Below are positions 16,327 to 38,770 of a DNA stretch of 40,616 nucleotides, in pieces. How positions within the stretch are numbered: the first letter of the stretch is position 1; every line of letters starts with the position of its first letter. Under the pieces are notes generated by a model. That model was given only the letters and a program-made list of their open reading frames with translations, did no database searches and was not told the origin of the DNA. This DNA comes from Treponema sp. (lineage in GTDB: Bacteria > Spirochaetota > Spirochaetia > Treponematales > Breznakiellaceae), in the NCBI GenBank assembly GCA_031286205.1, contig JAITUR010000122.1, forward strand, positions 1-40,616, read 5' to 3'. Made by a program: the position numbers and the translations under genes.

Positions 16327-17118
16327 TTATCTCTTTAACGCCGATACTAAATCCATACCGTTAAAATGTTCTTCGGAAAATTTTAACATGGTTCCATCTT
16401 CTAAAAGTTCGCTTATTGCATTGTTAACAGCATTAAAAAGATTGTTATTGTCTTTTTTAATAATAATGCCGAATTCTTCTTTGCCGCCCTGCCAGACAAT
16501 TTCATAAAAATCGGAACGGGCAAGATATTCGTAAGCAACTACAATATCTGTCATAATTGCATCTACTCTGCCAAGCCTAAGCTCGTCGAAACAGTACATT
16601 ACCTTGTCATAGGCGTATGGGGTAAAACGCAATCCCTCCTTTGCAAGATCCGCCATAATATACTCGGAAGTTGTGGCTTCCTGAAAAGCAACACCAAGAC
16701 CCCCAAGATCGGAAGGTGAGCTTACACGCCGCCTGGAATTTCTGGGAAGAACAATTGCAAGTGTATTTTGAATATATGGCTTGCTTACATTATAGTTTAT
16801 TATTCTTTCCGGTGTAATTGTAACAGACGAAATTATACAATCGTATCTTTTTGCATCGACTCCTGCAAAAATACCGTCCCATGCGGTATCTATAAATTCA
16901 ATTTTTAAATCCAGTTTTTCTCCGATTGCATTTGCCAGACTTATATCGAAACCTGCAGGATTTCCATTATCGTCGTAATACTCCATAGGAGGGTATCCAA
17001 TTTCTATACCTACCATTAAAACACCCTTTTTCAGAGTAAGACCATCGGTTTCTCTTAAACAACCGGAATAAAATACAAGAAAAAATATTATAAAAATATA
17101 AAATAAAACATTCTTCAT
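16327..17118 (-). CDS. Amino-acid-binding lipoprotein of the ABC transporter
   Basis: Family 3 solute-binding protein that captures the substrate outside the membrane and hands it to the permease. Residues 1-20 are a lipoprotein signal ending in FYSGC (Cys20). The mature part has LMVGIEIGYPPMEYYDDNGNPAGFDISLANAIGEKL and AWDGIFAGVDAKRYDCIISSVTITPERI, the family hallmarks. I chose ATG at 17118 (263 residues). The upstream in-frame ATG at 17154 lies between the -35 and -10 elements. The -10 TATAAT ends six bases before this ATG, so the message is probably leaderless despite an AAGGAC immediately upstream. Confidence 0.92.
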   Translation of the reverse strand: MKNVLFYIFIIFFLVFYSGCLRETDGLTLKKGVLMVGIEIGYPPMEYYDDNGNPAGFDISLANAIGEKLDLKIEFIDTAWDGIFAGVDAKRYDCIISSVTITPERIINYNVSKPYIQNTLAIVLPRNSRRRVSSPSDLGGLGVAFQEATTSEYIMADLAKEGLRFTPYAYDKVMYCFDELRLGRVDAIMTDIVVAYEYLARSDFYEIVWQGGKEEFGIIIKKDNNNLFNAVNNAISELLEDGTMLKFSEEHFNGMDLVSALKR

Positions 17119-17124
17119 GTCCTT

Positions 17125-17154
17125 ATTATAGCCGGAATACAAGCATGATGTCAA
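17125..17154 (-). promoter_or_regulatory. Consensus promoter of the ABC operon, six bases before ATG
   Basis: On the minus strand TTGACA (17154-17149) and TATAAT (17130-17125) are both perfect, with an 18-bp spacer. AAGGAC fills the six bases to the ATG at 17118, so transcription should start at about the start codon. Confidence 0.85.
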
Positions 17155-17179
17155 TTGTACAGAAAATGCCCGTAATGCC

Positions 17180-17208
17180 TTGACTTTATTGCCGCGTTAT
17201 TTTATATT
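17180..17208 (+). promoter_or_regulatory. Promoter of the LuxR-type regulator gene
   Basis: TTGACT (17180-17185) and TATATT (17203-17208) have a 17-bp spacer. The ATG at 17222 is 13 bases after the -10, leaving a leader of about seven bases without a Shine-Dalgarno. Confidence 0.65.
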
Positions 17209-17221
17209 TAAATACAATGTT

Positions 17222-19732
17222 ATGGATAATTCGAACCCTGTAATTCATTTTAATAGACCACGCTTGAATCAACTTTTTATGGAAGCCATAAAATATCCTT
17301 TAATTATTGTGTGTGCAGGAGCGGGTTACGGTAAAACAAGCGCAGTTTTAGACTTTATAAAAGAATACAAAGCTCTTAATATTTGGATACAGCTATCTGA
17401 AAAAGATAATATTGGGTCGCGTTTTTGGGAAAACTGCGCCAATACCATGGCTCCCATAAACAAAGCCCTTGTCGATGCCTGTGTTAAACTTGGATTCCCC
17501 GATACTCCCGAAAAAGTAAAACAATATATGGAGCTTGTTAATACTCTTGTCGATAAAAAACGGCGTCTTTTAATTTTTGACGATTTTCATTATATTCAAG
17601 AGCCGTCTGTTATTCGTTTTTTGGAAGAATGTGTTATTCACAGAATGCCGCCGGGAACTTCGATATTAATTATTTCCCGCTCCAGCCCCCAATTAAATAT
17701 TGCAAACATGATTTCCAAGGGATACATATATAACATAACGGAAAACGATCTTCGTTTTACAGAAAATGAACTTGCTCAATATTTTAACCAGCTTGATCTT
17801 TATCCGGATCAGAGTATTATTAACGAAATAATCCAGGATACAGAAGGCTGGGTTTTTGCGATTAATCTTATTGCTCATTCGTATAAAAAAGCGCCCGGTT
17901 ATAACGGCTACTTAAGAAATGCAATGAAGTTTAACATTTTTAAGCTGATGGAAACTGAAATTTGGAACGAAATTTCTCCTTCTTTGCAGACTTTTTTAAT
18001 ACGGCTTTCCTTAATAGAACATCTTTCTACAGAATTAATTTCACTTTTGGCAGGTAAAGAAAAAAATTTAATTAAAGAGCTGGAAAAACAAACTGCTTAT
18101 ATACGACAGGATCAATATATTAACGCGTATCTTATTCACCCTTTGTTTTTGGATTTCTTAAAAGATAAACAAAAATTGCTTTCCGAAAAACAAAAAAAAG
18201 AAACATATTCCGTTACAGGTGAATGGTGCAATAAAAACGGTTTTAAGATGGATGCGCTTTCTTATTACGAAAAAATTGGCGACTATAAATCCATTGCCTC
18301 TATTTTATATGCGCTGCCGCCGCAAATACCCCGCAATATTGTAAAATTCGCGGCGGATATTCTGGACAGAGCGCCAAAAGAAACGGCTGTATCCATAAAT
18401 AATTTTGCTTCCATGCATTTATCGACATATATGGGTCAGGGTCTTTGGGAAGACGCGCTTAAACTTGCGGAACGCTACGAAAAACTTTTTCTGAAACTGC
18501 CAAAAGGAAACCCTTTTAAGAATCAGGCGTTAAGCACAATTTACAATAGCTGGGGATACCTTCGTATTTTAATGAGCATAAAAGATGATATTTATGACTT
18601 CGATAAATACTTTATTAAATACTGCAAACATATCAAGCAGCCGCTTGATATGATAAGAATTTATAATCATGGGCCGGGTCCATGGATTAACGGAACAGGA
18701 ACTTCGCGAAAAGGCGCGCCGCAGGAATTTATAGATGCGCTTAAACGCTCGACAGATGCCGTAAAAAAACATTTAAAAGGATTTAAACCGGGCGATTCAG
18801 AAATTGCAATGGGAGAATTAAATTTTTACCGGGGTAATTTAAGCGAAGCTGAAACAGATATTATTATGGGGCTAGAACAGGCTCGTGAATGTAAGCAATA
18901 CGAAATTATGCACCGCGGTCTTTTTTATATGATGCGCCTAAGTTTTGTGCAGGGAAATTACGAAAAACTACAGACGGTTTTAAGAGAGATAAAGTCTCAT
19001 CTGGAAGAAACCGTTTATTTAAAACGGCATATAAATTACGATATTACAATGTGCTGGTACTATTGTCTTTTGGGTATGCCGGATAAAGTACCCGCCTGGC
19101 TTAAGGAAGGATTTTCTCCGTACGGACACGCCGCATTTATAGAAAACTTTGCAAACCAGATGAAGGCATGGTACTGTCTGGCGACAAGAAATTATCCTTC
19201 GTTATTATCATATATACAGGAATTAAAGCAAAGAGAATCGTACCTGTATGGGCGTATAGAAATGTTTGCTATGGAAGCGTGCGTGCATTATAAAATGAAA
19301 AATACTCAAAAAGCGCTTGTATCACTTAAAGATGCTTATAGCGAAGCGCACCCCAACGAACTTTTAATGCCATTTATAGAATTAGGCAAAGATATGAGGA
19401 CATTAAGTTCTTTTGCGCTTAAAAAAAACTGCGGTATTCCCAAAGCATGGCTGGAAACGGTTAATCGGAAATCCGCATCTTACGCAAAACGACAGGCTCA
19501 TATAATTACACATTATAAACAGGAACACAGTATTTCCGATATTTCCATATCGCCGCGGGAAGCGGAAGTTATCGCAGACCTCTCTCATGGGCTTTCTCGT
19601 ACAGAAATTGCCGCAAACAGGGGGCTTTCTATTAACACAATTAAAATGATAATTAACAGGGTGTACATGAAACTGGGTGCGGAAAATTTAGCGGATGCAA
19701 TTAGAATAGCGACAAGAAAAAAAATCCTGTAA
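17222..19732 (+). CDS. MalT-like LuxR-family transcriptional regulator
   Basis: An 836-residue STAND-type regulator. An ATP-binding domain has Walker A GAGYGKTS (33-40) and a Walker B-like LLIFDDFH. A winged-helix and long helical repeat region (about 330-740) follows that would receive an inducer. The C-terminal LuxR helix-turn-helix reads ISPREAEVIADLSHGLSRTEI and SINTIKMIINRVYMKLG. MalT-type proteins activate catabolic genes when bound to ATP and a sugar or other ligand. The ligand here is unknown. The ATG at 17222 is preferred to an upstream start at 17180, which would overlap the -35. It diverges from the ABC operon and ends one base before the converging STAS gene. Confidence 0.9.
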   Translation: MDNSNPVIHFNRPRLNQLFMEAIKYPLIIVCAGAGYGKTSAVLDFIKEYKALNIWIQLSEKDNIGSRFWENCANTMAPINKALVDACVKLGFPDTPEKVKQYMELVNTLVDKKRRLLIFDDFHYIQEPSVIRFLEECVIHRMPPGTSILIISRSSPQLNIANMISKGYIYNITENDLRFTENELAQYFNQLDLYPDQSIINEIIQDTEGWVFAINLIAHSYKKAPGYNGYLRNAMKFNIFKLMETEIWNEISPSLQTFLIRLSLIEHLSTELISLLAGKEKNLIKELEKQTAYIRQDQYINAYLIHPLFLDFLKDKQKLLSEKQKKETYSVTGEWCNKNGFKMDALSYYEKIGDYKSIASILYALPPQIPRNIVKFAADILDRAPKETAVSINNFASMHLSTYMGQGLWEDALKLAERYEKLFLKLPKGNPFKNQALSTIYNSWGYLRILMSIKDDIYDFDKYFIKYCKHIKQPLDMIRIYNHGPGPWINGTGTSRKGAPQEFIDALKRSTDAVKKHLKGFKPGDSEIAMGELNFYRGNLSEAETDIIMGLEQARECKQYEIMHRGLFYMMRLSFVQGNYEKLQTVLREIKSHLEETVYLKRHINYDITMCWYYCLLGMPDKVPAWLKEGFSPYGHAAFIENFANQMKAWYCLATRNYPSLLSYIQELKQRESYLYGRIEMFAMEACVHYKMKNTQKALVSLKDAYSEAHPNELLMPFIELGKDMRTLSSFALKKNCGIPKAWLETVNRKSASYAKRQAHIITHYKQEHSISDISISPREAEVIADLSHGLSRTEIAANRGLSINTIKMIINRVYMKLGAENLADAIRIATRKKIL

Positions 19733-20050
19733 TTACTTGTACAGCATTTCGTTTAATGCGATCATGCCAATAACATTCCTGACATTAACAGAAGGACTTT
19801 GAATATAAAACTCGCCGCCATTACTTTTTAGAATTTTGCTAAAAGAAAGAATTATCCGAATGCCTCCGGAGCTTAAAAATGTAACTCTGCTCATATTTAT
19901 AACGATATAGTTTTTTTTATTGCTTACAGCATCTTCCAGCTTCTTTTTTAGTTTTCCTGCAGTATCAGCGGTAATTTGACCTTTTGCTATAAGCCTTATG
20001 CTTTTCTCTCCGGTTTTTTCTTCGGTTATAGTTAAATTGTCATTAATCAT
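19733..20050 (-). CDS. STAS-domain anti-sigma factor antagonist (second copy)
   Basis: A 105-residue SpoIIAA/RsbV-like protein. The conserved site where the partner kinase phosphorylates a Ser is visible as VTFLSSGGIRIIL (about 57-69). It starts one base after the TAG of the phosphatase-kinase gene, with its GAGGAT inside the end of that gene, so translation is coupled. In partner switching, the unphosphorylated form binds the anti-sigma kinase and releases its target. N-terminal residues 1-30 are Lys/Thr-rich and less conserved. Confidence 0.88.
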   Translation of the reverse strand: MINDNLTITEEKTGEKSIRLIAKGQITADTAGKLKKKLEDAVSNKKNYIVINMSRVTFLSSGGIRIILSFSKILKSNGGEFYIQSPSVNVRNVIGMIALNEMLYK

Positions 20051-20051
20051 T

Positions 20052-22388
20052 CTATATCCTCTTTTTAATCGTTAGTATATTATTACCATTTTCATAAAGA
20101 TAATCAACTGTATCCATAAGTTTTTTTATCATAAAGATGCCTAAACCGCCAATATCGCGCTCTTCTATTGGAGTTATAATGTTAGGATCGTCCATTTCCA
20201 GGGGATTAAACCGGGTACCGCTGTCCTTAAATTGAATAATAATTTCGCTGCCCATGTCCATTTTTACAGTAACATTTCCTGTAAGAGGGGTATATGCATA
20301 ACTGGAAATGTTAACAAATACCTCTTCTACCGCTACTTTGATATTATTTTGCAATTCCATATTAATATTCTTTTTTTCCATTTCTACGCCGATAAAATCC
20401 ATAACAGAATCCAAATTTTCTATTTTAGCTTCTACTGTTATTTCTTTTGCTATAAAAGATATATAACCTTTATAATCCAATGCTAACATTGTAATATCAT
20501 CTGCCTGTTCAGCGCCGTTTGCAAAAGCATCTATATCTTTTTTTATATCATGCAGGAAATCTTTTAAATCTGCATTGGCGCATTTATTAACCGTTTTTAA
20601 CAGCCTGGCATCTGTAAAAAGCTCCCCCTTATTATTAAACGCTTCTGTAACGCCGTCTGTATATAAAAACAAAATATCGTTTTTATTTAATGTTATTTCA
20701 TCCTGTTTATATTGCGTATCTTCCATGCCTGCAAGGATAAGTTCGGGTCTAACGGGAAGCCATTCAAACTCTCCGTTTGCTCTTTTAATAAGCGGAGGAT
20801 TATGCCCTGCGCTTACATATGTAAATTTTCCTGTCGGTATATTCAGAAAACCCATAAACGCCGTAACAAACATACAGGCATCGTTATTTTCGCATAACAA
20901 ATTATTAACATTAATAAAAACATCCTGTGGGCTTTTGCCGGATTGCGCATTGTATTTTATTAATGTTTTTGCAACAACCATAAACAATGCGGAAGGAATT
21001 CCCTTGCCGGAAACATCAGCCATTACCAGGGCAAGCGTGTTTGAATCAATCATAAAAAAATCGTAAAAATCGCCGCCTACTATTCTTGCAGGTAGCATAC
21101 TTGCGTAAATATCAAACTCTGTTTTGTATGGAAAAGCCGGGAAAGAGCTGGGCAGCATATTTGACTGAATACTTGCAGCTACATTTAATTCTGCTTCCAA
21201 TGAATCTATAGGAAGGGCAATTTTAGCGGATAGTTTACTGGAAAAAATCGCAATAGCAGCCGCCACAGCAATAGACACTAAAATAAAAATTATGGATGTA
21301 AACATAATTATAGAATTAATAAAATCTCTTGTTCGCAAAGTCATATTGTCAATTACCGCATAGTTTTCCGTAACCATATTCATTATCTGCGAAACAGGCC
21401 GCACAGTTGCCAGGCTCCAGCCTGTTGTCTGAATCGGCGAATATGCAATTAACATTTCATCTTCTTCTACAATAATTCGCCTAAACCCCGATGCTCCAAG
21501 CGCTACTTCTTTTTTTATTTCGTTAAATACGGCATCGGAATAATTAATATTGCTGGAAGAAACAAGAGTTCTTTCAGAATCTATAATAAAAGCAAATCCG
21601 CTTACGCCAAGATCGTTATTTACAATGTTTGTAATTTCGCTGTAAAGGTCAGATAAAATAACATCAATTCCGGCAACTCCCATAAATACATTGTTTGCAT
21701 TATAAAAAGGCATTGAACAAGTTATAAAAAGTTCGCCGCTGACTGCTCCAATATACGGGGCAGTCCAATAAATATTTTGGGCAGATTTTGCGCCAATATA
21801 CCACGGACGCACACGAGGATCAAAAACCTGGCTGGTATCATCTGAAAAAGGATCATAAGAAATAAATAAACCGGATTCTGTTCCAAGAAAAACTGAAATG
21901 GTCATGTACTGCATACTGTGTTTATTACTTTCGAACAATGATTTTATATTTCCCAGTAAATTAGCTTCGCTTCTAAGACGCATATAATCTGCTCTGCCAT
22001 TTGCGCTTCTTAGCTGCATTGTCAGTGTTCCCCTGTTTTCCGATCTGCTGTATGGTATGGGTATGGCAGGAAGTTCGGAAGAATGTATATAAATTTCTTT
22101 AACAAAGTTGGATAAAAGAAGAGTATCCTTGGCAATATCTAAAAGGCGTTCGTTAATAATTAAAGATTGATCCCGCGCCTGTGCCATTAATCTGTTTAAT
22201 ACTTCTCTTTGCAAAAAACGGCTGCTGGTTGCTGCGGCAAATTCTCCAAGGTCTGCACTGGACTTTTGCACTTGCTCCCTAATACTAAGCAAACTCCAAA
22301 AAGATACAGCGCATAACACAACCAGCGACACTAAGGACACTCCAAGAATAATAAAAAATAATTTAAGTTTAATGCTTGTTATTTTCAT
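20052..22388 (-). CDS. Membrane sensor with PP2C (RsbU) and anti-sigma kinase (RsbW) domains
   Basis: A 778-residue protein carrying three modules. Residues 10-35 and 357-382 are membrane helices flanking a double-Cache sensor domain with DPRVRPWY (190-197). A SpoIIE/RsbU phosphatase follows (about 420-640), with metal-binding acidic residues in GGDFYD (Asp440), ADVSGKG (Asp458), YTDGVTEA (Asp578) and ADDITML (630-636). The C-terminus (650-778) is a GHKL kinase like RsbW/SpoIIAB, with VEEVFVNISSYAY, DSGTRFNP and GGLGI. It would both phosphorylate and dephosphorylate STAS antagonists in response to an extracellular ligand. It begins directly after the first STAS gene stop and is followed by the second STAS gene. 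Confidence 0.9.
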   Translation of the reverse strand: MKITSIKLKLFFIILGVSLVSLVVLCAVSFWSLLSIREQVQKSSADLGEFAAATSSRFLQREVLNRLMAQARDQSLIINERLLDIAKDTLLLSNFVKEIYIHSSELPAIPIPYSRSENRGTLTMQLRSANGRADYMRLRSEANLLGNIKSLFESNKHSMQYMTISVFLGTESGLFISYDPFSDDTSQVFDPRVRPWYIGAKSAQNIYWTAPYIGAVSGELFITCSMPFYNANNVFMGVAGIDVILSDLYSEITNIVNNDLGVSGFAFIIDSERTLVSSSNINYSDAVFNEIKKEVALGASGFRRIIVEEDEMLIAYSPIQTTGWSLATVRPVSQIMNMVTENYAVIDNMTLRTRDFINSIIMFTSIIFILVSIAVAAAIAIFSSKLSAKIALPIDSLEAELNVAASIQSNMLPSSFPAFPYKTEFDIYASMLPARIVGGDFYDFFMIDSNTLALVMADVSGKGIPSALFMVVAKTLIKYNAQSGKSPQDVFINVNNLLCENNDACMFVTAFMGFLNIPTGKFTYVSAGHNPPLIKRANGEFEWLPVRPELILAGMEDTQYKQDEITLNKNDILFLYTDGVTEAFNNKGELFTDARLLKTVNKCANADLKDFLHDIKKDIDAFANGAEQADDITMLALDYKGYISFIAKEITVEAKIENLDSVMDFIGVEMEKKNINMELQNNIKVAVEEVFVNISSYAYTPLTGNVTVKMDMGSEIIIQFKDSGTRFNPLEMDDPNIITPIEERDIGGLGIFMIKKLMDTVDYLYENGNNILTIKKRI

Positions 22389-22697
22389 TTACTCAATATT
22401 AAAAACATCTGCAAACCCGGTTATTTTAAGAATTTCTTTTACTCCATGGGTTACATTAATAAGCTTCATAAAAATATTTTTTGCCAAGGCTTTTTTGTGA
22501 CCAAGCAATAAAACGCGTAAACCTGACGAAGAAATATAGGTAAGTTTTTCTAAATCCAGCACAATGCAGCAATTATCGTCTGCCTCGTCAAAAACCGGGA
22601 TAAATTCAAGCTCAAACTTGGGAGACGAGTTTACATCCATTCTTCCTTCCAGGGTAAAAATAATATTTCCGTCTTTTTGGGTTTTATTAATAGTCAT
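22389..22697 (-). CDS. STAS-domain anti-sigma factor antagonist (first copy)
   Basis: A 102-residue RsbV/SpoIIAA-like protein, first gene of the partner-switching operon. The phosphorylatable segment is TYISSSGLRVLLL, and LDLEKL precedes it as in the family. The start ATG at 22697 has AGGAGA upstream; an in-frame start at 22751 would add a non-conserved tail and is rejected. The stop is immediately followed by the ATG of the sensor-phosphatase-kinase gene. The sigma factor or other target is not encoded in this window. Confidence 0.9.
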   Translation of the reverse strand: MTINKTQKDGNIIFTLEGRMDVNSSPKFELEFIPVFDEADDNCCIVLDLEKLTYISSSGLRVLLLGHKKALAKNIFMKLINVTHGVKEILKITGFADVFNIE

Positions 22698-22788
22698 AGT
22701 ATTTTCTCCTCTTGTCTTTAAGATTTTAACATAAAAATCACGAAAAAACATAGGTGGGATAGAGGTTGGAATTTAAAGCTCCGAGGTC

Positions 22789-22817
22789 TTGACAGGGTAT
22801 ATATCATGGTATATACT
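22789..22817 (+). promoter_or_regulatory. vapBC promoter
   Basis: A perfect TTGACA (22789-22794) and TATACT (22812-22817) are 17 bp apart. AGGAG follows in the leader before the ATG at 22836. Confidence 0.85.
22797..22816. promoter_or_regulatory. Operator-like palindrome overlapping the vapBC promoter
   Basis: GTATATA and TATATAC are perfect inverted arms around TCATGG. The site covers the spacer and -10 of the vapBC promoter, as expected for autorepression by a VapB-VapC complex. Confidence 0.75.
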
Positions 22818-22835
22818 AAATTATAGGAGAAAAAT

Positions 22836-23066
22836 ATGCAAACGGCTAAGTTATTTGTAAATGGAAGAAGTCAGGCAGTAAGGCTGCCAAAAGACTATCA
22901 ATTTAAAGGGGAAAATGTATATATAAAAAGGATAGGTGAGGCTGTAATGTTGTTTCCTGTAGATAAAGAGTGGGAAGTGTTTATGCACGGATTAAATAAT
23001 TTTTCAGATGATTTTATGGTAAATGGCAGGGTACAAGGATCTGCTCAAGAAAGGGAAGCCTTTTAA
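22836..23066 (+). CDS. vapB: VapB-type antitoxin
   Basis: A 76-residue protein. The N-terminal swapped-hairpin (AbrB/MazE/VapB) DNA-binding motif is clear in TAKLFVNGRSQAVRLPKDYQF (3-23). The C-terminal half would wrap the toxin. It overlaps vapC by one base (TAATG). It neutralises VapC and, with it, represses its own promoter. Confidence 0.93.
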   Translation: MQTAKLFVNGRSQAVRLPKDYQFKGENVYIKRIGEAVMLFPVDKEWEVFMHGLNNFSDDFMVNGRVQGSAQEREAF

Positions 23067-23467
23067 TGTATATACTTGATACTAACATTTGCATTTACAT
23101 AATAAAAAAGAAGTTCCCAAATATAATTAAAAAATTAATGATAAACAGGAAAAAAGGTCTTTTTATTTCCAGTATTACACTTGCAGAACTGGAATTTGGG
23201 ATAGAGAATGCAAATCCGGAATATGAAACTAAAAACCGAATAGCGTTAATGGAATTTTTATCAATATTTGAAATTAAAAATTTCGATGAAAATGCATCAA
23301 AGGAATATGGTAAAATTAAAAAAGACCTGAAAGACAGAAATTGTTTAATAGGACAAATGGATATGTTAATAGCGGCACATGCAAAAGCGTTAAAAATGAC
23401 ACTAGTAACAAATAATACAGACGAATTTAAAAGAGTAAAAGATTTAAAAATTGAAGACTGGAAATAA
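23066..23467 (+). CDS. vapC: VapC PIN-domain ribonuclease toxin
   Basis: A 133-residue PIN-domain nuclease that typically cuts tRNA or rRNA when VapB is degraded. The acidic site residues are Asp5 (ILDTNI), Glu41 (TLAELEFG) and Asp99 (GQMDMLIAAHA), followed by the TNNTDEF motif at 115-121. It is translationally coupled to vapB. All visible catalytic positions are intact, so it should be active. Confidence 0.93.
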   Translation: MYILDTNICIYIIKKKFPNIIKKLMINRKKGLFISSITLAELEFGIENANPEYETKNRIALMEFLSIFEIKNFDENASKEYGKIKKDLKDRNCLIGQMDMLIAAHAKALKMTLVTNNTDEFKRVKDLKIEDWK

Positions 23468-23503
23468 GGCATAATTTTCAGTTAAAAATCCCCCAAAACC
23501 CTG

Positions 23504-23532
23504 TTGCCTTTTTTATTCCAAGATGTTATATT
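23504..23532 (+). promoter_or_regulatory. Promoter of the efflux operon
   Basis: TTGCCT (23504-23509) and TATATT (23527-23532) are separated by 17 bp. The predicted start site falls inside the palindromic operator that follows. Confidence 0.65.
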
Positions 23533-23535
23533 TAT

Positions 23536-23555
23536 GTTAACGAACGGTCGGTAAC
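23536..23555. promoter_or_regulatory. TetR-type operator in front of the efflux operon
   Basis: The left half GTTAACGAAC and right half GGTCGGTAAC are inverted copies at 8 of 10 positions. The site spans +1 to the base before the TetR start codon, so the regulator would block its own transcription. Confidence 0.7.
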
Positions 23556-23556
23556 T

Positions 23557-30623: not shown

Positions 30624-30627
30624 CCCT

Positions 30628-31671
30628 TTACTGAATACTTATTAATTCCATCTCGAAGACCAAAAAGCTGTTGGCAGGAATTACGCCTCCAACAGCACGG
30701 TCGCCGTAAGCAAGCTCCGGGGGAATAATGACAAGCCGCTTTTCGCCTACCTGCATATCCAGAATAATCTCGTCCCATCCTGCAATAACCCTGCCTGCTC
30801 CTGCCTGAAACTCCAGCGGTTTTCCCCTAAGAGTAGAATCGTCAAATACAGTGCCGTCCAACAGTTTGCCGGTATAATGCACGCTTACATTTCTGCCTCG
30901 TGCTGGTTTAGCGCCCGATCCCGTTTTTTGAACTATAAAACGAATACCGGAAGATGTCTGGCGTGTATTGGGATAATCTCTGGCAATTCTGCTAAGATCT
31001 GCCTGCCGTTGGGACTGTAATCTTCTTTCGTTTGCAGAACCTGCATCTCTTCTTAGTCTGTCAAAATTTTCCTGATCTGCCCTAAAAGCATTTGCGGCTG
31101 TCCCATTTCGGATTATTGTAACCCTTTCTATCTTGTCGCCCTGTCTGGTTGTATTAACAATATTCTGCCCATGTACAACCTGCCCAAAAACTGTATGCAG
31201 TCCATCCAGATGGGGAGTAGGCACTATGGTAATAAAAAACTGGCTTCCGTTTGTACCGGGTCCGGCATTTGCCATACTTAAAACACCCGGCTTGTCATGT
31301 TTTAGATTAGGATCGATTTCGTCCGGAAAATTATAACCGGGTCCGCCGCGCCCGTTTCCCTGCGGGCAGCCGCCCTGGATCATAAAATCCTGTGAATCTC
31401 CATTGGCTCTGGAAATAACACGATGGAAAACAAGCCCGTCGTAATAACGCCTGCCCCTGGTATTGCTCATATTGCCTTCGGCAAGAGCTACAAAATTACA
31501 AACCGTAAGGGGAGCGCGCTGGTATTCTAAACGCACAATAATATCACCCCTGTTGGTGGTAATCCTCGCAAAAAGCCCGTCGCCCAAATTCTGGGCATCT
31601 ACATCTTCTACAGCGCTCATAAATAATAAGACTCCAATCATTAAAATTAATATATATTTGATATTTTTCAT
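30628..31671 (-). CDS. Secreted cyclophilin-FKBP fusion peptidyl-prolyl isomerase
   Basis: A 347-residue exported protein. After a signal peptide (1-27) comes a cyclophilin domain (about 30-192: [56 protein letters not shown]), a helical charged linker (about 195-245), and an FKBP domain (about 240-347: [45 protein letters not shown]). Both classes speed up prolyl isomerisation and so aid folding outside the cytoplasm. Two unrelated PPIase folds in one chain are rare; such fusions have been described in a few bacteria, treponemes among them. The ATG at 31671 is preferred; TATAAT ends six bases before it. Confidence 0.93.
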
Positions 31672-31677
31672 ATTGAT

Positions 31678-31706
31678 ATTATAGCGGATCCAAAGCATAT
31701 TGACAA
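31678..31706 (-). promoter_or_regulatory. PPIase promoter, six bases before ATG
   Basis: On the minus strand TTGTCA (31706-31701) is 17 bp from a perfect TATAAT (31683-31678). The ATG is six bases beyond, with no Shine-Dalgarno. The -35 overlaps the opposite-strand murA -35. Confidence 0.8.
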
Positions 31707-31727
31707 TTGGTAAATAATCGTTACATT
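31700..31727 (+). promoter_or_regulatory. murA promoter, six bases before ATG
   Basis: A perfect TTGACA (31700-31705) is 16 bp from TACATT (31722-31727), and ATG follows after six bases. No Shine-Dalgarno is present. Confidence 0.7.
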
Positions 31728-31733
31728 CATTAT

Positions 31734-33011
31734 ATGAGCGAATATCATATTAATGGCGGAGTTCCGTTGAATGGGACAATAAAAGTCAGCGGGAACAAAA
31801 ATGCTGCCTTGCCCTGTATTGCGGCGGCAATTCTTACCGACGAGCCGGTAATTCTTAGAAATATCCCGGATATAGAAGATGTCCGGGTAATGCTTGCCGC
31901 CTTTGCCGCCCTTGGCGGAGAAGTAGAAAAGCTGGAGCCCAATGCCTATAAACTTCATTTAAAAGATATTAAATCCCCGGAAATTCCAAGAGAACACGCA
32001 AAAAAAATCCGAGCATCAATACTATTCGCAGGCCCATTGCTTGCGCGGCTGGGCAAGGTAATTCTTCCTCCTCCGGGCGGCGATGTTATTGGAAGAAGGC
32101 GGCTGGACACTCATTTTTTAGCGCTTATAGAGCTAGGATCAAAAGAAAAAATTGGCGAGGATTTTACCTTTACCACAAAACAACTGATTGGCGCAGATAT
32201 TTTCCTGGACGAAGCATCGGTAACTGCGACAGAAAATGCAATTATGGCGGCTTCTTTGGCAAAGGGGCGGACAATGTTAACAAATGCCGCAAGCGAACCC
32301 CATGTGCAGGATCTTTGCAATATGCTTGTAAATATGGGCGCTAAAATAGAAGGAATAGGCTCTAATATCTTAAAAATTGACGGCGCAGATAAGCTGCATG
32401 GCTGCGATTTCGAGATAGGCCCCGATTTTATGGAAGCAGGCTCTTTTATAGGATTGGCTGCCGCTACCGGAGGCGGGCTTCATATAGAAGGGGCAAGGGT
32501 ACAGGATATGCGCCCTTCTAAAATTGCCTTTGGCAAGCTGGGTATTGTTTGGGCGCACGAAGGAACCGTTATTCATGTTCCAAAGAATCAGCAAATGGAA
32601 GTAAACCATGATCTTGGCGGAATGATTCCAAAAATAGATGACGCGCCCTGGCCGGGTTTTCCGCCCGATCTTTTAAGCATTCTTTTGGTTGTTGCAACTC
32701 AGGTTAAAGGGACAGTTTTAATTCACGAAAAAATGTACGAATCCCGAAGGTTTTTTGTAGACAAGTTAATTGGAATGGGCGCACGCATTGTATTGTGCGA
32801 TCCGCACCGCGCCGTTGTTTCCGGCCCCGCAAAACTCCTGGGCTCCGATTTAATCAGCCCCGATGTCCGTGCCGGAATGGCTATGATTATTGCCGCTATG
32901 TGCGCCGACGGAAAAAGCATTATCCGCAATGTGTACCAGATTGAGCGCGGCTACGAAAACCTTGCCGACAGACTTGCCTTGCTTGGCGCGCGGATAGAAA
33001 GGAAAGAATAG
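31734..33011 (+). CDS. murA: UDP-N-acetylglucosamine 1-carboxyvinyltransferase, Asp-type
   Basis: First committed step of peptidoglycan synthesis, transfer of enolpyruvyl from PEP to UDP-GlcNAc in the cytosol. The 425-residue protein has GNKNAALP (20-27) and the catalytic loop [16 protein letters not shown] (112-127). The position of the usual Cys (Cys115 in E. coli) is Asp117. This Asp form is known in mycobacteria, chlamydiae and Borrelia and makes the enzyme insensitive to fosfomycin. The start at 31734 is preferred to 31707, which lies inside the promoter spacer. The RRRLDTH segment also departs from the common ARPVDLH. A MurA paralogue is possible but no second copy is visible here. Confidence 0.93.
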
Positions 33012-33051
33012 TTAAATTACCCGGCTATTGCATATAAAAGCCGGAATATAG

Positions 33052-33057
33052 TAAAAT
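33052..33057 (+). promoter_or_regulatory. -10 element of the tRNA-Leu promoter
   Basis: TAAAAT is preceded by TTGCAT (33028-33033) at 18 bp, giving a start about seven bases before the tRNA. The -35 lies in the loop of a 6-bp hairpin (CCGGCT/AGCCGG, 33021-33044) that follows murA. Confidence 0.55.
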
Positions 33058-33070
33058 TAAGTTGATACAA

Positions 33071-33153
33071 GCTGGCGTGGTGGAATGGCAGACACTGGGG
33101 ACTTAAAATCCCCTCCTAGCAATAGGGTATGAGTTCGAGTCTCATCGCCAGCA
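33071..33153 (+). tRNA. tRNA-Leu, anticodon TAA
   Basis: The acceptor arms GCTGGCG and CGCCAGC pair fully, with discriminator A at 33153. The anticodon stem GGGGA/TCCCC closes the loop CTTAAAA, anticodon TAA at 33104-33106, reading UUA. The long variable arm CCTAGCAATAGG is as expected for tRNA-Leu. The T arm TGAG-TTCGAGT-CTCA is intact. CCA is not encoded. Confidence 0.96.
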
Positions 33154-33176
33154 TACTCAAGGTTAAGGAGCAAAAT

Positions 33177-34556
33177 ATGAGTAAAAAAATCCCTACAAGA
33201 ATTTATCTATCAGAAGACGAGATTCCCAAAGCCTGGTACAACTTAAGGGCGGACATGAAAAACAAACCCGATCCCTTGCTGCATCCGGGAACCCTGCAGC
33301 CAATAACAGCCGACGACCTTGCGCCTGTATTCTGTAAGGGCGTTATCGAACAGGAATTGGATGACACTACCCGCTTTATTCCCATCCCGGACGAACTTTA
33401 CGATTTCTACCGCGCATATAGGCCGTCTCCGCTTGTCCGTGCATATTATTTGGAAAAGGAACTTGGGACACCGGCGGAAATTTATTACAAATTCGAAGGT
33501 ACAAATACCTCCGGATCGCACAAATTAAATTCGGCAGGGCCCCAGGCATACTATGCAAAAAAAGACGGGCTTACTTCTCTTACTACAGAAACAGGCGCTG
33601 GTCAGTGGGGAACAGCAATGTCAATGGCATGCGCTTTTTACGGAATCGAATTAATTGTATATATGGTAAAAATAAGCTCGGAACAAAAACCTTACCGCAA
33701 GGCGTTAATGGAAGCTTATGGCGCAAATCTTATTCCTTCTCCTTCCGACACAACAGAATCCGGAAGAAAAATTCTGGCAGCAGACCCCAACACCGGCGGA
33801 TCTCTTGGCTGCGCGATTACCGAAGCAATCGAAACTGCCGTTAAAACCGACAAGTGCCGTTATGTATTAGGCAGTGTCCTGAATCATGTGCTTCTGCATC
33901 AGTCGATAATAGGGCTGGAAGCAAAAGCAGCACTAGATAACTTTAATATTAAGCCCGATATTATAATCGGATGCGCAGGCGGCGGTTCTAATCTTGGCGG
34001 GCTTATTTCTCCGTTCATGGGCGAAAAACTTGCCGGAAAATTGGATGCCCGCTTTATTGCCATAGAGCCTGCTTCCTGCCCGTCGTTTACACGGGGCAAA
34101 TACGCTTACGATTTTGGCGACACCGGACAAACAACCCCGCTTATTAAAATGATGACTCTAGGAAACGGATTTATGCCGTCTTCGAATCATGCCGGAGGAC
34201 TGCGCTACCACGGAATGAACGCTATTCTGTCAAAATTGTATCAAGACGGTTTAATAGAAGCCAAGTCTGCCGTTCAAACCGAAGTGTTTGATGCCGCGCT
34301 CCGCTTTATGAAAGTAGAAGGCATACTACCCGCCCCCGAATCTTCGCACGCAATTAAAGCGGCAATAGACGAAGCATTGGAATGTAAAAAAACAGGGGAG
34401 AAAAAAGTTATCCTTTTTGGTTTAAGCGGCACGGGTTACTTTGACATGACAGCATACAGTTCGTACAACAATAAAACAATGAACGACCAAATACCAAGCG
34501 ATGCCGATCTGGAAAAAGGATTTGCCTCTATACCTAAGATTCCGCAGAACGGGTAA
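33177..34556 (+). CDS. trpB2: TrpB2-type tryptophan synthase beta-like PLP enzyme
   Basis: A 459-residue PLP enzyme of the TrpB-related (TrpB2) group, which joins serine and indole to tryptophan and often works without TrpA. RPSPLVRAYYLEKELG (82-97) leads to the PLP lysine Lys116 in NTSGSHKLNSA. It is followed by ETGAGQWG, TTESGRKILA, GCAGGGSNLGG and the C-terminal FGLSGTGYFD. The N-terminal extension of about 60 residues is typical of TrpB2. No trpA, trpC or other pathway gene is near, so indole salvage is plausible. AAGGAG precedes the ATG at 33177. The ATG lies 24 bases after the tRNA, and no promoter is visible between them. Confidence 0.93.
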   Translation: MSKKIPTRIYLSEDEIPKAWYNLRADMKNKPDPLLHPGTLQPITADDLAPVFCKGVIEQELDDTTRFIPIPDELYDFYRAYRPSPLVRAYYLEKELGTPAEIYYKFEGTNTSGSHKLNSAGPQAYYAKKDGLTSLTTETGAGQWGTAMSMACAFYGIELIVYMVKISSEQKPYRKALMEAYGANLIPSPSDTTESGRKILAADPNTGGSLGCAITEAIETAVKTDKCRYVLGSVLNHVLLHQSIIGLEAKAALDNFNIKPDIIIGCAGGGSNLGGLISPFMGEKLAGKLDARFIAIEPASCPSFTRGKYAYDFGDTGQTTPLIKMMTLGNGFMPSSNHAGGLRYHGMNAILSKLYQDGLIEAKSAVQTEVFDAALRFMKVEGILPAPESSHAIKAAIDEALECKKTGEKKVILFGLSGTGYFDMTAYSSYNNKTMNDQIPSDADLEKGFASIPKIPQNG

Positions 34557-35676
34557 TTCCTTTAATTAAGGAATCGCAGACAATATCAACATCCTCTTCT
34601 GTCATGCCGGGGTACAATGGCAGGGTTAGTTCGCGGGCGCTTACATATTCTGCTTTGGGGGTGCTTAATACTTTGTCCTTGTACGCCGTAAAACTTTTAA
34701 TTGCAGGATAATGTATGCTTGTTTGAACACCGTCGTTCTTCATGGATTCGATTAACGCCGCTCTGTCAATTTTTTCCGCAAGCAGAATGGGCATTATATG
34801 ATAACTGGAGCTGCCTCTGGAAAAATCTTTATACGGAATTGATATATGCGGAACACCGGACAACTGCTTGTTATAAAGTTCTACAAGTTTTTGGCGTTTA
34901 TTGTTGGCACCTTCCAGTTTAGAAAGCTGAACAAGACACAAAGCAGAAGCAATCTCGGTAATGCGATAATTTAATCCGGGTGCGCCTACATCGTAAGAGA
35001 CAGCCCTGCCATTGTAACGATCAAACGACAATACAGACATTCCGTGCGAACGCAGATTTTTTAATTTTTCGTACAACTCTGCATTTTGCGTTACTATCAT
35101 ACCGCCTTCGCCTGCGGCAATATTCTTATTGGCAAAAAAACTAAAAGCAGATATATCGCCAAAAGTACCAAGCGGTTTATTGTTATAACTTGCACCGGGA
35201 GTATGGGCACAATCTTCTATTAAAAATAAATTGCGCTTTTTACATAAAGCGGTAATGCTGTCCATATCGCAGGCATAACCCGCATAGTGTACAATCATTA
35301 TAGCTTTGGTTTTTTCGGTAATTTTTGATTCAATATCGCAAGGGTCAACCGACCAGTCTTCCATAGATGTAATATCCGCAAGCACATTTTTTGCGCCGCA
35401 CATTTCTACAACATTTTGATCCGCAATAAATGTCAGAGCGGGGGTAATTACTTCATCGCCCTGTTTAATGCCAAGGGCAAGGAGCGCCATGTGTAAAGCG
35501 CTGGTGCAGCTGGAAACGGCAAGGCACTTAGATCCATTTCCAAGAAAAGCGGAAAAACTAGATTCGAAATCGAAAGTTTTTTGACTCATTGTAAGCCAGC
35601 CGGAATTAAGCACTTCTCCAACCGCCTGATGCTCTCTTTCGTCGTAATTGTTTTTATAAAATTGTACGCGCCACAT
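34534..35676 (-). CDS. DegT/DnrJ/EryC1-family sugar aminotransferase
   Basis: A 380-residue PLP enzyme that aminates nucleotide-linked keto sugars, usually for surface glycans or glycosylation. The family patterns are FLGNGSKCLAVSSCTSALHMAL (44-65), DEVITPALTFIADQN (74-88), LIEDCAHTPGASYNNKPLGTFGDISAFSFFANKNIAAGEGG (152-192), with PLP lysine Lys184. Start at 35676 (MWRVQFYKNN) is chosen; the longer reading into the eda region has no family similarity. No Shine-Dalgarno is seen. Its 3' end overlaps the trpB2 end by 23 bases. Substrate unknown. The neighbouring eda gene points to sugar metabolism. Confidence 0.88.
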   Translation of the reverse strand: MWRVQFYKNNYDEREHQAVGEVLNSGWLTMSQKTFDFESSFSAFLGNGSKCLAVSSCTSALHMALLALGIKQGDEVITPALTFIADQNVVEMCGAKNVLADITSMEDWSVDPCDIESKITEKTKAIMIVHYAGYACDMDSITALCKKRNLFLIEDCAHTPGASYNNKPLGTFGDISAFSFFANKNIAAGEGGMIVTQNAELYEKLKNLRSHGMSVLSFDRYNGRAVSYDVGAPGLNYRITEIASALCLVQLSKLEGANNKRQKLVELYNKQLSGVPHISIPYKDFSRGSSSYHIMPILLAEKIDRAALIESMKNDGVQTSIHYPAIKSFTAYKDKVLSTPKAEYVSARELTLPLYPGMTEEDVDIVCDSLIKGITRSAES

Positions 35677-35678
35677 GG

Positions 35679-35707
35679 TTACAATAATAACACAAATCGT
35701 ATATATT
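35679..35707 (+). promoter_or_regulatory. eda promoter, six bases before ATG
   Basis: TTACAA (35679-35684) and TATATT (35702-35707) are 17 bp apart, and AATAAT leads directly into ATG at 35714. The -10-like TATTAT of the opposite gene (35689-35684, minus strand) overlaps this -35. Confidence 0.65.
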
Positions 35708-35713
35708 AATAAT

Positions 35714-36373
35714 ATGCTTACAATGACAAAAGAAGTACAGGAAAAAATAGCGCAAGAAGGCATTATTGCGGTTTTGGAAATGGAATCCGAGCAAAATGCA
35801 GTGCCGACAGCAAAAGCGCTTTTAGAAGGCGGAATTACCGTTATCGAACTTGCCCTGCGGACATCTGCAGCTATTCCATCAATCTCGCTTATTGCAAAAG
35901 AAGTGCCGCAATTATACATTGGCATTGGCACAATAATAGAGCCTGGGCAGGCAGCGGCGGTTAAAGCGCAAAGCGGCGTAAGTTTTGGCGTTTCCCCGGG
36001 AATTAACCCGGTAATTGTAAAGGAAGCTATAACCGCAGGTTTGCCCTTTGCGCCCGGCATTGCAACCCCAAGCGATATAGAACAGGCAATTTCTTTGGGC
36101 TGCCGCGTTGTTAAATTTTTTCCCGCAGAAGGCATGGGCGGTTTAAGCTACTTAAAAAGCATTAATGCTCCTTACAACCATTTGGGAATTAAATACATCC
36201 CGCTGGGCGGCGTTACGCCAAACAATCTTCCCGATTACGCAAAGTTTGATCGTATCCTTGCAATTGGCGGAAGCTGGATTGCAAATAAAGAACTAATCAA
36301 AGCGCAGGACTGGAAAGAAATTACCAAAAGAGCGCGGGAAGCAAAAGAAATTTGGAACGCTAACCGCGGATAA
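35714..36373 (+). CDS. eda: KDPG/KHG aldolase
   Basis: This 219-residue class I aldolase splits 2-keto-3-deoxy-6-phosphogluconate into pyruvate and glyceraldehyde-3-phosphate (Entner-Doudoroff or uronate breakdown). Glu45 in VIELALRT and Schiff-base Lys134 in RVVKFFPAE are both present, with GIGTIIEPGQA and GIATPSDIEQA between them. Start at 35714 is the first ATG after the -10; a second ATG at 35723 is possible. It is probably cotranscribed with the Aat-like gene three bases downstream. Confidence 0.93.
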   Translation: MLTMTKEVQEKIAQEGIIAVLEMESEQNAVPTAKALLEGGITVIELALRTSAAIPSISLIAKEVPQLYIGIGTIIEPGQAAAVKAQSGVSFGVSPGINPVIVKEAITAGLPFAPGIATPSDIEQAISLGCRVVKFFPAEGMGGLSYLKSINAPYNHLGIKYIPLGGVTPNNLPDYAKFDRILAIGGSWIANKELIKAQDWKEITKRAREAKEIWNANRG

Positions 36374-36376
36374 AAA

Positions 36377-37093
36377 ATGCTGCTTCGTTACACCAGTGCC
36401 GGATTTCTGATAATTAAACCCGAAGATAATTGTCATGCAATAGTAGATGCTATGCTTGCTACAGGGTACAATGAAGAATTTTGTATTGCCCTTGACTTTG
36501 ACCCCGAATTTACCGCAAGGCTTATGGATGCCGGATTTCTGGTAATGTCTGCCGATATTGCGGAAATAGACGAAGAAGAACCGTTCTATATATCAATGCC
36601 AAAATTGCATTTGGAAAGATCAGCCCTGTTTTTTGAAAATCTGCATATTAAAAAATCAGTAAAGCGATTATTAAACAAGTATGAATTAAAAGTAGATACC
36701 GATTTTAATTTTTTAATTGATCGCTGTATAGAAAAACACGGTTCCGGCTGGCTTACTCCCCCTCTTGTTGAATGTATAAAAGAAATACGGCGAACAAGAC
36801 CTACGGGAAACGCTTATCCAACTTCTTTTTCGCTGTACCGTAACGGCTCTTTGGTTGCCGGCGAATTCGGCATTATCTGCGGCAAGGTTTACACAAGCTA
36901 CTCCGGCTATTACGACGAGTCAAATGCCGGCACAGTGCAGCTTATTCTTCTTGCTAAATATCTTCAGGAACAGGGATTTTTATTTTTTGATCTAGGAATG
37001 CCTATTAATTATAAGTTTGATCTTGGGGCTGTAAATATTACACCGGAAAAGTTTGTTTCTCTTTTTAGAGCAGCCAACCCCCGGCACGAATAA
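36377..37093 (+). CDS. Aat-like leucyl/phenylalanyl-tRNA protein transferase family
   Basis: A 238-residue protein, close to the usual length of Aat (about 234). The matching segments are HGSGWLTPPLVECIKEIRRT (115-134), SLYRNGSLVAGEFGIICGKVYTSYSGYYDESNAGTVQLILLAKYLQEQGFLFFDLG (about 147-202) and NYKFDLGAVNITPEKFVSLFR near the end, in the order of Aat. Aat adds Leu or Phe to protein N-termini for N-end-rule degradation. Several core residues differ from E. coli, so activity or substrate may differ. It begins three bases after the eda stop with no Shine-Dalgarno and converges with the 98-residue membrane protein gene. Confidence 0.75.
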   Translation: MLLRYTSAGFLIIKPEDNCHAIVDAMLATGYNEEFCIALDFDPEFTARLMDAGFLVMSADIAEIDEEEPFYISMPKLHLERSALFFENLHIKKSVKRLLNKYELKVDTDFNFLIDRCIEKHGSGWLTPPLVECIKEIRRTRPTGNAYPTSFSLYRNGSLVAGEFGIICGKVYTSYSGYYDESNAGTVQLILLAKYLQEQGFLFFDLGMPINYKFDLGAVNITPEKFVSLFRAANPRHE

Positions 37094-37390
37094 TTAATTT
37101 TTTTTATCGATCTGCCTTTTGTGCTTGTTTATAAAAATAGGATCAAAGTATTTTTCTATATCGATTTTTTTAAGCAAAAATTTTAATACCACCCGGTAAA
37201 CCCCAATAGAGACTGCAAGACAAGCTAAAAATACAAGTGTAAAGCCCCAGCTATAACTTGATTCCGGTATAACCGGTATTATAAACTTTCTAAAAATAAT
37301 GTAAAACAGAAAAAAAGATATTATAGCGACAATAACATTAAATAAAGTTGCTCCCAAAATAAATAAAATTGTATTAAGTTTCTTGTTCAT
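37094..37390 (-). CDS. Small membrane protein, unknown
   Basis: A 98-residue protein with two or three hydrophobic segments (about 8-33, 36-48 and 50-71) and a highly basic C-terminal tail ending RQIDKKN. No family recognised. Its start overlaps the lspA end by 17 bases, with AAGGTGG about eight bases upstream inside lspA, so it is translated from the lspA message. Confidence 0.7.
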   Translation of the reverse strand: MNKKLNTILFILGATLFNVIVAIISFFLFYIIFRKFIIPVIPESSYSWGFTLVFLACLAVSIGVYRVVLKFLLKKIDIEKYFDPIFINKHKRQIDKKN

Positions 37391-37949
37391 CTATTTCCAC
37401 CTTTACCTTTGCTTTTTCTTTGCCGTAAGATATAAAAATTGTTATAAACAATAAAATACAGCACACCACCACAGATGAGTCTGCAACATTAAAAGTAGGC
37501 CACCTTTCCATTCCAAAAAGTCCGTAAATTCTTACGCTGATAAAATCTACAACTCCATCTGGACGGAAAATACGGTCTAAAATATTTCCAATTCCGCCGC
37601 CAATTATGCCGGCAACCGCCCATTTTTGAACATTGTTAAATTCATCGGATGTAAAATAATACCACAAAAGGAAGCCCAAAACCAAAATGGGAAAAACAAT
37701 AAAAGCTATTGGTTTAATAATTTCCGGAAGATTTTCTCCCAGACTAAACGCTATTGCCTTGTTGCGAACATGAACAATGTGCAAAAACCCGTTTTCGAAA
37801 ACATCTTTAATAAACCTAAAAAAAACACCTTCGGGGATAGGCCATTTTTTTGCTATTATGGCTTTTGTAATTTGATCCAAAAGCACAACACCTGCCGTTA
37901 ATGATAATGGCAATACCTTTTCTTTGGTAAAATATTTTTGTAAATTCAT
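37374..37949 (-). CDS. lspA: Lipoprotein signal peptidase (SPase II)
   Basis: This inner-membrane aspartyl protease cuts the signal peptides of diacylglyceryl-modified prolipoproteins, so it processes the several lipoproteins coded in this window. The 191-residue protein has four membrane segments, LLDQITKAII (23-32), Asp125 in GGGIGNILDR and Asp157 in FNVADS, the two catalytic aspartates. The start ATG at 37949 has GGAG six bases upstream; an in-frame TTG at 37961 is not used. It follows NIF3 by 15 bases, so it is in the same operon. Confidence 0.95.
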   Translation of the reverse strand: MNLQKYFTKEKVLPLSLTAGVVLLDQITKAIIAKKWPIPEGVFFRFIKDVFENGFLHIVHVRNKAIAFSLGENLPEIIKPIAFIVFPILVLGFLLWYYFTSDEFNNVQKWAVAGIIGGGIGNILDRIFRPDGVVDFISVRIYGLFGMERWPTFNVADSSVVVCCILLFITIFISYGKEKAKVKVEIDEQET

Positions 37950-37964
37950 TTTATACTCCAATTT

Positions 37965-38735
37965 TTATAGTCCCGTAGGGGCATCGATAAATTCAACATC
38001 TATTCCAAGTTCTTTTTTACAATGTTCCATAACGGCACGCACGCCCCACACTTCTGTACAATAGTGGCCGCCGCAAAGCAGGTTCATTTTTCCTTCCAGA
38101 CATTCGTGATATATATTGTGCGAGCTTTCGCCTGTTACAAATAAATCCACGCCGTTTTCTATTGCATCCCTTGCATTGGGTGCAGCCCCGCCGGACATAA
38201 TTGCGGCGGTTTGGTTTTCTTTTTTTCCAAATGGAAACACACCAATAGGAGGCCTGTTCATAAAATCGATTTTTTTAGCGGCTTCGTCTATAGTAATGGG
38301 TTTGGGAAAAGTTCCTTTGTAACCGACTTTTTTGCCGTGGTATCCGCCAAAAGGTTCGATATTTTCCAGCCCCAAAAGCTGCGCCAAAATACCATTATTG
38401 CCAAACTGCAAATGCTGATCCAAAGGCAGGTGAACCCCGTACAAACAAATATTGTGATCCAGTAAAAACTTAATTCTTTGTCTTAGGACTTTTTCTATTC
38501 TTGCCGGATTACCCCAAAAAAGCCCGTGGTGAACAAAGAGAATTCCGGCATTTATGGCGCTTGCCTGCTCGAAGGTTTCCATAGCGGCATCTACGGCAAA
38601 GGCTATTTTACGAACAGCCGAACCGTCATTGTCTACCTGTATCCCGTTCAGAGAGTTGTCTGCCGATATAAACCCTTCGATGTCAAGAAATCCTTTTATA
38701 AATGTATCAAATTTAGCTGTTGTTATTTCGCTCAT
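37965..38735 (-). CDS. NIF3-like dinuclear metal protein
   Basis: A 256-residue member of the NIF3/YbgI family, cytosolic metal-binding proteins of uncertain reaction (a GTP cyclohydrolase I type 2 role is often assigned by annotation only). The family metal ligands are visible in LFVHHGLFW, YGVHLPLDQH, VTGESSHNIYHEC and GGHYCTEVWGV. Start at 38735 (MSEITTAKF) is preferred because the promoter -10 ends six bases before it; an in-frame start at 38774 lies upstream of the -35. It heads the operon with lspA and the small membrane protein. Confidence 0.9.
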   Translation of the reverse strand: MSEITTAKFDTFIKGFLDIEGFISADNSLNGIQVDNDGSAVRKIAFAVDAAMETFEQASAINAGILFVHHGLFWGNPARIEKVLRQRIKFLLDHNICLYGVHLPLDQHLQFGNNGILAQLLGLENIEPFGGYHGKKVGYKGTFPKPITIDEAAKKIDFMNRPPIGVFPFGKKENQTAAIMSGGAAPNARDAIENGVDLFVTGESSHNIYHECLEGKMNLLCGGHYCTEVWGVRAVMEHCKKELGIDVEFIDAPTGL

Positions 38736-38741
38736 AGAAAA

Positions 38742-38770
38742 AGTGTAGCAAAAAGCGGGATAAGAAACAA
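38742..38770 (-). promoter_or_regulatory. NIF3-lspA operon promoter, six bases before ATG
   Basis: On the minus strand TTGTTT (38770-38765) is 17 bp from TACACT (38747-38742). TTTTCT fills the six bases to the ATG, and there is no Shine-Dalgarno. Confidence 0.65.

Follow-up and report, generated by a model that had tools for sequence, protein, structure and literature searches.

A probable class of leaderless genes in Treponema, with sigma-70-type promoters six bases before the start codon

We analysed a 40,616-nucleotide stretch of Treponema sp. DNA (the window; C26:1-40616, on contig 26 of a 2.34 Mb draft genome of 126 contigs) in which five genes have a promoter -10 hexamer followed by exactly six bases and then the ATG start codon. 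The best reading of this layout, to which we give a probability of about 0.86 on the strength of the sequence, is that sigma-70 promoters are set against the start codon and would give leaderless mRNAs. The geometry exceeds chance across the genome, is concentrated in the first genes of operons, comes with additional promoter elements, and recurs in orthologues.

The five genes encode a family-3 solute-binding protein (SBP), a cyclophilin-FKBP fusion PPIase, murA, the KDPG/KHG aldolase eda, and a DUF34/NIF3 protein (NIF3). Pfam agrees with all five identities, with SBP matching SBP_bac_3, and NCBIfam agrees for murA, NIF3, and eda. Among named murA genes, the nearest share 81-86% protein identity and are mostly from metagenome-assembled genomes (MAGs) titled Treponema sp.; we take their isolate codes (Emb289, Co191, Th196, and others) to denote termite-gut samples. 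The accessible text of a paper on 589 MAGs from higher-termite guts contains the codes Lab288 and Emb289 (PMC7024585).

Promoter sites in the window

A reading of this stretch made from the sequence alone had claimed a -10 hexamer, six bases, and ATG at five genes, and all five are there when the sequence is read directly. The sites are given below with a sixth candidate; the -35-like hexamers were read by eye, and the basis of each entry is in brackets.

17119..17130, minus strand: SBP -10 TATAAT (17130-17125) and AAGGAC, ATG at 17118 (sequence; Pfam SBP_bac_3)
17149..17154, minus strand: SBP -35 TTGACA, 18 bp from the -10 (sequence)
31672..31683, minus strand: PPIase -10 TATAAT (31683-31678) and ATCAAT, ATG at 31671 (sequence; same-genus loci)
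31701..31706, minus strand: PPIase -35 TTGTCA, 17 bp from the -10 (sequence)
31700..31705, plus strand: murA -35 TTGACA, 16 bp from the -10 (sequence; recurs in many near murA loci)
31722..31733, plus strand: murA -10 TACATT (31722-31727) and CATTAT, ATG at 31734 (sequence; near murA loci)
35702..35713, plus strand: eda -10-like TATATT (35702-35707) and AATAAT, ATG at 35714; the weakest of the five (sequence)
35677..35689, minus strand: DegT-family -10-like TATTAT (35689-35684) and seven bases, ATG at 35676; the sixth candidate (sequence)
38736..38747, minus strand: NIF3 -10 TACACT (38747-38742) and TTTTCT, ATG at 38735 (sequence; order-wide loci)

The same reading placed a -35-like hexamer 16-18 bp upstream at each gene. 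These spacings hold in all five, but the hexamers of eda (GTTACA at 16 bp, 4/6 matches) and NIF3 (TTGTTT at 17 bp, 3/6 matches) are weak. At SBP, AAGGA lies one base ahead of the ATG, nearer than the spacing of Shine-Dalgarno (SD) sequences in this genome, which peaks at 5-8 bases.

The murA and PPIase genes diverge from each other, their ATGs being separated by 62 bases, and their -35 hexamers overlap by 5 bp (31700-31705 on the plus strand, 31706-31701 on the minus strand). This overlap implies two complete promoters that point apart, each ending at its own start codon. With the hexamers overlapping at 31700-31706, the two promoters may also compete for polymerase.

The sixth candidate precedes a DegT-family gene. 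Its longest open reading frame (ORF), 34534-36135, has a Pfam match that begins only at residue 164 of 533; this ORF is probably overcalled, and the conserved ATG at 35676 has TATTAT seven bases upstream. In two relatives (L174, L176) the same ATG follows TATAAT and six bases.

Within the window alone, 5 of 36 listed starts have TANNNT at a spacer of six bases between hexamer and start codon (spacer 6), which is a modest excess (P about 0.016, calculated by hand from a 4% background).

Excess across the genome and the order

The genome-wide count used 777 kb of the same genome, about one third of it, with the window included. Genes were called with a three-periodic Markov model, which took the place of an initial caller that relied on single-codon usage and detected no more than 3 genes in the window. 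Starts were picked by coding score and start-codon type, overlaps were trimmed, and upstream motifs were ignored; operons were inferred from strand and distance only. The background is the mean TANNNT count over spacers 12-30, complemented by 100 shuffles.

Among the 258 operon-first ATG genes, TANNNT occurs at spacer 6 in 36, against a background of 10.05. The shuffles gave a mean of 9.1 and never more than 16. The sequence-only reading had named the lack of a genome-wide excess at this offset as a refutation, and the count does not refute it. The peak persists under a stricter -10 definition (26 versus 4.3 expected), and the neighbouring spacers 4, 5, and 7 hold 16, 16, and 15 sites; a chance match at any given spacer is expected for about 4% of operon-first starts. 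Operon-internal ATG genes of the same genome have TANNNT at spacer 6 in 8 of 209 cases, versus 5.4.

We scanned 40 spacer-6 genes with Pfam: 30 from this genome (of 32 listed beyond the window) and 10 from a related genome, G036 (of 17 listed). By their domains they look like dnaX, thrS, alr, trmB, glyA, cheR, a Clp ATPase, coaD, and others. These names were given by hand, with coaD alone confirmed by NCBIfam (TIGR01510, score above the cut-off).

The excess extends to other genomes of the order. Six of seven, including this one, are above background at spacer 6, the exception being G037. Operon-first counts are 17/98 versus 3.4 in G036, 8/76 versus 2.5 in G007, 4/75 versus 1.2 in G024, and 6/75 versus 0.6 in G027, which has 69% GC. 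The seven genomes pooled give 79/765 versus about 23, and the six without our own give 43/478 versus about 12 (pooled backgrounds were averaged by hand). The excess amounts to about 9% of operon-first genes in our own genome and about 7% in the pool. In G036 (L299-L307) the spacer-6 hexamer is often TATACT, with GC often directly before the ATG, a variant flavour of the layout. As a control, 200 kb of E. coli K-12 run through the same caller shows no peak at spacer 6 (1/99 versus 1.5).

The spacer-6 sites carry further promoter elements. The extended -10 motif TGn is present at 15 of 34 such sites in our own genome, compared with 25/216 for TANNNT at other spacings, which served as the control, and at 15/43 versus 21/227 in the other six genomes. 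A -35 hexamer near TTGACA, 15-19 bp from the -10 and with at least 4/6 matches, accompanies 19/34 sites versus 59/204 controls (P 0.003), and 19/43 versus 59/213 in the other six (P 0.045). SD sequences are missing in 77 of the 79 pooled spacer-6 genes. The 16S rRNA gene was not found in our assembly (G000), so the anti-SD of this genome could not be read.

The base before the start codon is informative as well. E. coli prefers a pyrimidine at -1 and a purine at +1, with six bases from the -10 to +1, so a pyrimidine bias at -1 would be expected if the A of the ATG were +1. In the pooled genomes, 64/77 spacer-6 genes have a pyrimidine there, versus 207/314 SD genes (P 0.004) and 226/374 others; in our own genome alone the difference is not significant (27/34 versus 63/98, P 0.14).

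It could be argued that the AT-rich hexamer is a translational feature, such as an unstructured or S1-binding leader, and no promoter at all. In a study available to us in part (PMC5397173), S1 is offered as an alternative account of the AT-rich bias that non-SD genes show at -20 to -10. However, the main peak falls at a single spacer, is specific to TANNNT, and is tied to -35 and TGn elements at promoter spacing, and the signal is also present in the 69% GC genome. We therefore consider a purely translational origin very improbable.

Recurrence in orthologues and points against leaderless starts

We followed orthologues of coaD, NIF3, murA, PPIase, and eda, taking as the start of each the start codon nearest the aligned first residue, with ATG preferred. 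Matches occur in 34/39 genomes for coaD, 37/39 for NIF3, and 39/39 for PPIase. Order-wide counts are of 30 loci per search, own copy included; our own copy is counted in the coaD, NIF3, and PPIase sets and excluded from the murA set. No start could be assigned at murA L080 and L093, NIF3 L170, or eda L182 and L199, and these are not counted. The PPIase count omits three same-genus loci (L216-L218) in which the match began inside the protein.

The coaD gene keeps the layout most widely: across 30 loci in 30 genomes, 18 have TANNNT at spacer 6, 5 at spacer 7, and 3 at spacer 5 (26/30 at 5-7), and 4 have none. All ten loci outside the genus are at spacer 6 or 7. Across the 30 loci, values above 0.6 bit are confined to columns -35, -34, and -12, and most of the region has diverged. 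Many of these loci (L319-L348), in and outside the genus, have CTTGA(C/T) as the -35 despite diverged spacer bases.

The coaD loci also bear on the possibility that the -10 beside the ATG is real while leadered transcripts from an additional upstream promoter carry most of the translation, leaving the leaderless start secondary. AT-rich intergenic regions do hold further promoter-like hexamers, for example TACAAT farther upstream of eda. However, a longer coaD transcript would still lack an SD, since none of the 30 loci has one, and the murA/PPIase gap is 62 bp, into which both -35/-10 pairs fit. We consider a dominant second promoter unlikely.

Among the 29 NIF3 loci of the order, 18 are at spacer 6, 4 at 7, and 2 at 5 (24/29 at 5-7), with 1 at spacer 8 and 4 with none; two have an SD. 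In seven NIF3 loci (L144, L146, L149, L152, L154, L158, and L159) the six-base geometry stands before GTG in place of ATG. In the near group of murA (L061-L093, 31 loci), 23 are at spacer 6, 24 at 5-7, and 5 have an SD; TTGACA recurs at the murA -35 position in many of these near loci. Twelve of 18 same-genus PPIase loci, the window copy among them, are at spacer 6. Across orthologues, then, the layout is stable in some genes and changes in others.

Several results weigh against a leaderless class, or against its reach. G037 shows no excess (1/86 versus 1.3), and that of G021 is weak (7/68 versus 2.9). Pooled operon-internal genes have a mild excess that was not predicted (14/503 versus about 8). 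In our own genome TANNNT has further peaks at spacer 0 (22/258 versus 10) and at spacer 11 (27/258), and spacer 0 is high in the E. coli control too (5/99 versus 1.5). These two peaks are partly explained: of the 22 spacer-0 sites, 13 are accompanied by another TANNNT at 5-7 and an SD is present at 6, and of the 27 spacer-11 sites, 14 are accompanied by one at spacer 6, an SD is present at 9, and neither is seen at 4. Both excesses thus overlap largely, though not wholly, with spacer 5-7 sites and SD genes. That the spacer-11 peak consists wholly of extended -10 elements was considered and rejected, as only 10/27 proved to be TATGnT on a recount. Only 2/314 SD genes have TANNNT at spacer 6, and in these genes TANNNT is rarer at every spacer from 2 to 10. 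An SD would occupy the same bases, so that the near absence is partly steric; this avoidance, initially counted as strong support, is not treated as independent evidence. Leaders of 1-3 nt look the same as none at all in sequence.

The orthologues add limits of their own. In a wider draw from the phylum, NIF3 has spacer 6 in 3/28 loci (L231, L240, L241) and lacks it in 25/28, and in one family of the same order (f3) spacer 6 was found in 0/6 NIF3 loci; the NIF3 state is thus neither phylum-wide nor present in every family of the order. The murA loci beyond the near group are at spacer 6 in 8/47 cases and at 6-7 in 12/47, and 25 have an SD. Outside the genus, 7/9 PPIase loci have an SD.

The most doubtful of the five is eda, since SD-led starts prevail among its close relatives. 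A start could be read in 11 close orthologues, of which six are SD-led and one has TANNNT at spacer 6; the -35 is poor, and the 4% chance of a match at any one spacer applies here as well. For this gene alone, the alternative that the TANNNT is a coincidence, and that eda has a different promoter or another kind of leader, comes just short of even odds. On the other side, the copy in the window has no SD, and orthologues can switch initiation type, as murA does.

A further possibility is that the start codons are wrong, with the true starts slightly downstream behind an SD, so that the promoters yield ordinary short leaders. Start prediction is indeed imperfect, which counts against our reading: the same caller reproduced 30 of 41 annotated starts in one E. 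coli stretch (41 of its 43 complete coding genes, two short ones being left out). Given this accuracy, the spirochaete spacer-6 counts may instead be underestimates. An in-frame, SD-preceded start at codons 5-20 is no commoner in spacer-6 genes (3/77) than in SD-led genes (10/314) or the rest (22/374). Protein matches of murA and coaD mostly start at query residue 1 (those of PPIase do so at only 11/30 loci), and the NCBIfam profile matches begin at the 2nd position for coaD and the 1st for murA, which supports those start codons. Misplaced starts are therefore a remote explanation for the class.

Between murA and a PALP/trpB2 gene the window holds a tRNA-Leu gene (anticodon taa, 33071-33153). 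The start of the longest PALP/trpB2 ORF, 33129, lies inside this tRNA, and an SD-led start at 33177 is the more likely one.

Proposed mechanism and comparison with known systems

In the mechanism we favour, an ordinary sigma-70 promoter, made up of a -35 and a -10 TANNNT and in many cases extended by TGn, would place +1 on the A of the start codon or about one base off. The mRNA would then have no 5' leader and begin with AUG. As for leaderless mRNAs elsewhere, the ribosome would recognise this 5'-terminal AUG through fMet-tRNA and initiation factor 2 (IF2) and not through SD pairing. Where the transcript begins and how it is translated are both inferred from the layout. What was found agrees with leaderless genes of the TANNNT type, in that the -10 lies at about -12 above chance (except in G037), an SD is nearly always lacking (in part for steric reasons), and the excess is strong in the first genes of units and mild in inner ones. 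It also agrees with sigma-70 promoters, in that the -35 is enriched (though weak at eda and NIF3 of the window) and TGn is present in part of them. The class of leaderless genes suggested by the sequence-only reading is supported by the spacer-6 excess in operon-first genes, by the -35, TGn, and -1 pyrimidine signals, and by the orthologues, with eda as the doubtful case. Confidence that the gene is leaderless is high for murA, NIF3, and PPIase and fairly high for SBP; for eda the odds are about even.

It is tempting to go further and suppose that a few core housekeeping genes, coaD and NIF3 across much of the order and murA in the near group, are selected to stay leaderless. Their synthesis might then track the initiation machinery, for instance 70S initiation or the balance of IF2 and IF3, and not the strength of an SD, and the promoter-to-AUG distance would be a conserved regulatory element. 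We regard this as speculative and rather unlikely. Whether leaderlessness reflects selection or plain inheritance becomes a question that can be put to the coaD promoter.

The work extends an already described mode of translation initiation to a large, mostly uncultured group. Leaderless genes in spirochaetes will not surprise specialists; the coaD, NIF3, and murA cases are usable, as concrete genes whose leaderlessness can be tested in cultured relatives. In addition, TANNNT-N6-ATG can mark a start where an SD is absent, and we suggest it as an aid to start-codon annotation in these genomes.

The sequence-only reading knew of no detailed description of such genes in these spirochaetes. This stands for termite Treponema, for which we found no paper on leaderless genes in the open-licence literature; among the open-licence matches listed, no title or abstract start concerned leaderless genes in Treponema, and a T. 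pallidum peptide paper uses the word 8 times (PMC9200625). It does not stand for the phylum, where leaderless genes have already been predicted (PMC3160421) and, in Leptospira, mapped (PMC5243855).

In the accessible parts of their paper, Zheng et al. (2011) describe a leaderless class marked by TANNNT roughly 12 bp upstream of the start and predict such genes in 6/18 spirochaete genomes, where they average 3.9% of genes (1.8-6.9) (PMC3160421). Motif, position, and inference are alike in the two studies. Our 7-9% of operon-first genes corresponds to a few percent of all genes, which matches that published range. The text of Zheng et al., as available to us, identifies no spirochaete by genus and no spirochaete gene, and its main text mentions Leptospira, Treponema, and Borrelia 0 times, whereas here particular genes are traced through an order. 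Leptospira interrogans is likewise a spirochaete, in which differential RNA sequencing in 2017 gave 430-450 genes with a start site at most 10 nt from the start codon, and 184 and 170 start sites exactly at the start codon at two temperatures (PMC5243855). There the 5' ends were measured, while ours are predicted; that paper, in the portions available, reports sigma-54 sites and no other promoter motif, whereas here the -35, extended -10, and -10 are visible.

Leaderless mRNAs generally are recognised at their 5' AUG via initiator tRNA and IF2, according to the accessible text of PMC10783764. In Deinococcus-Thermus, a 2025 study that we could consult in part showed by experiment that the ORF-adjacent TANNNT acts as a genuine -10 at leaderless genes and has to lie at a set distance from the ORF (PMC12340547). 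The study looked at further bacterial phyla as well; its main text, as available, has no instance of "Spiroch". About 30% of ORFs are of this type there, compared with our excess of about 7-9% of operon-first genes. In all, leaderless genes are already known in bacteria and in spirochaetes, and what is added here is a layout that recurs in particular genes across related genomes.

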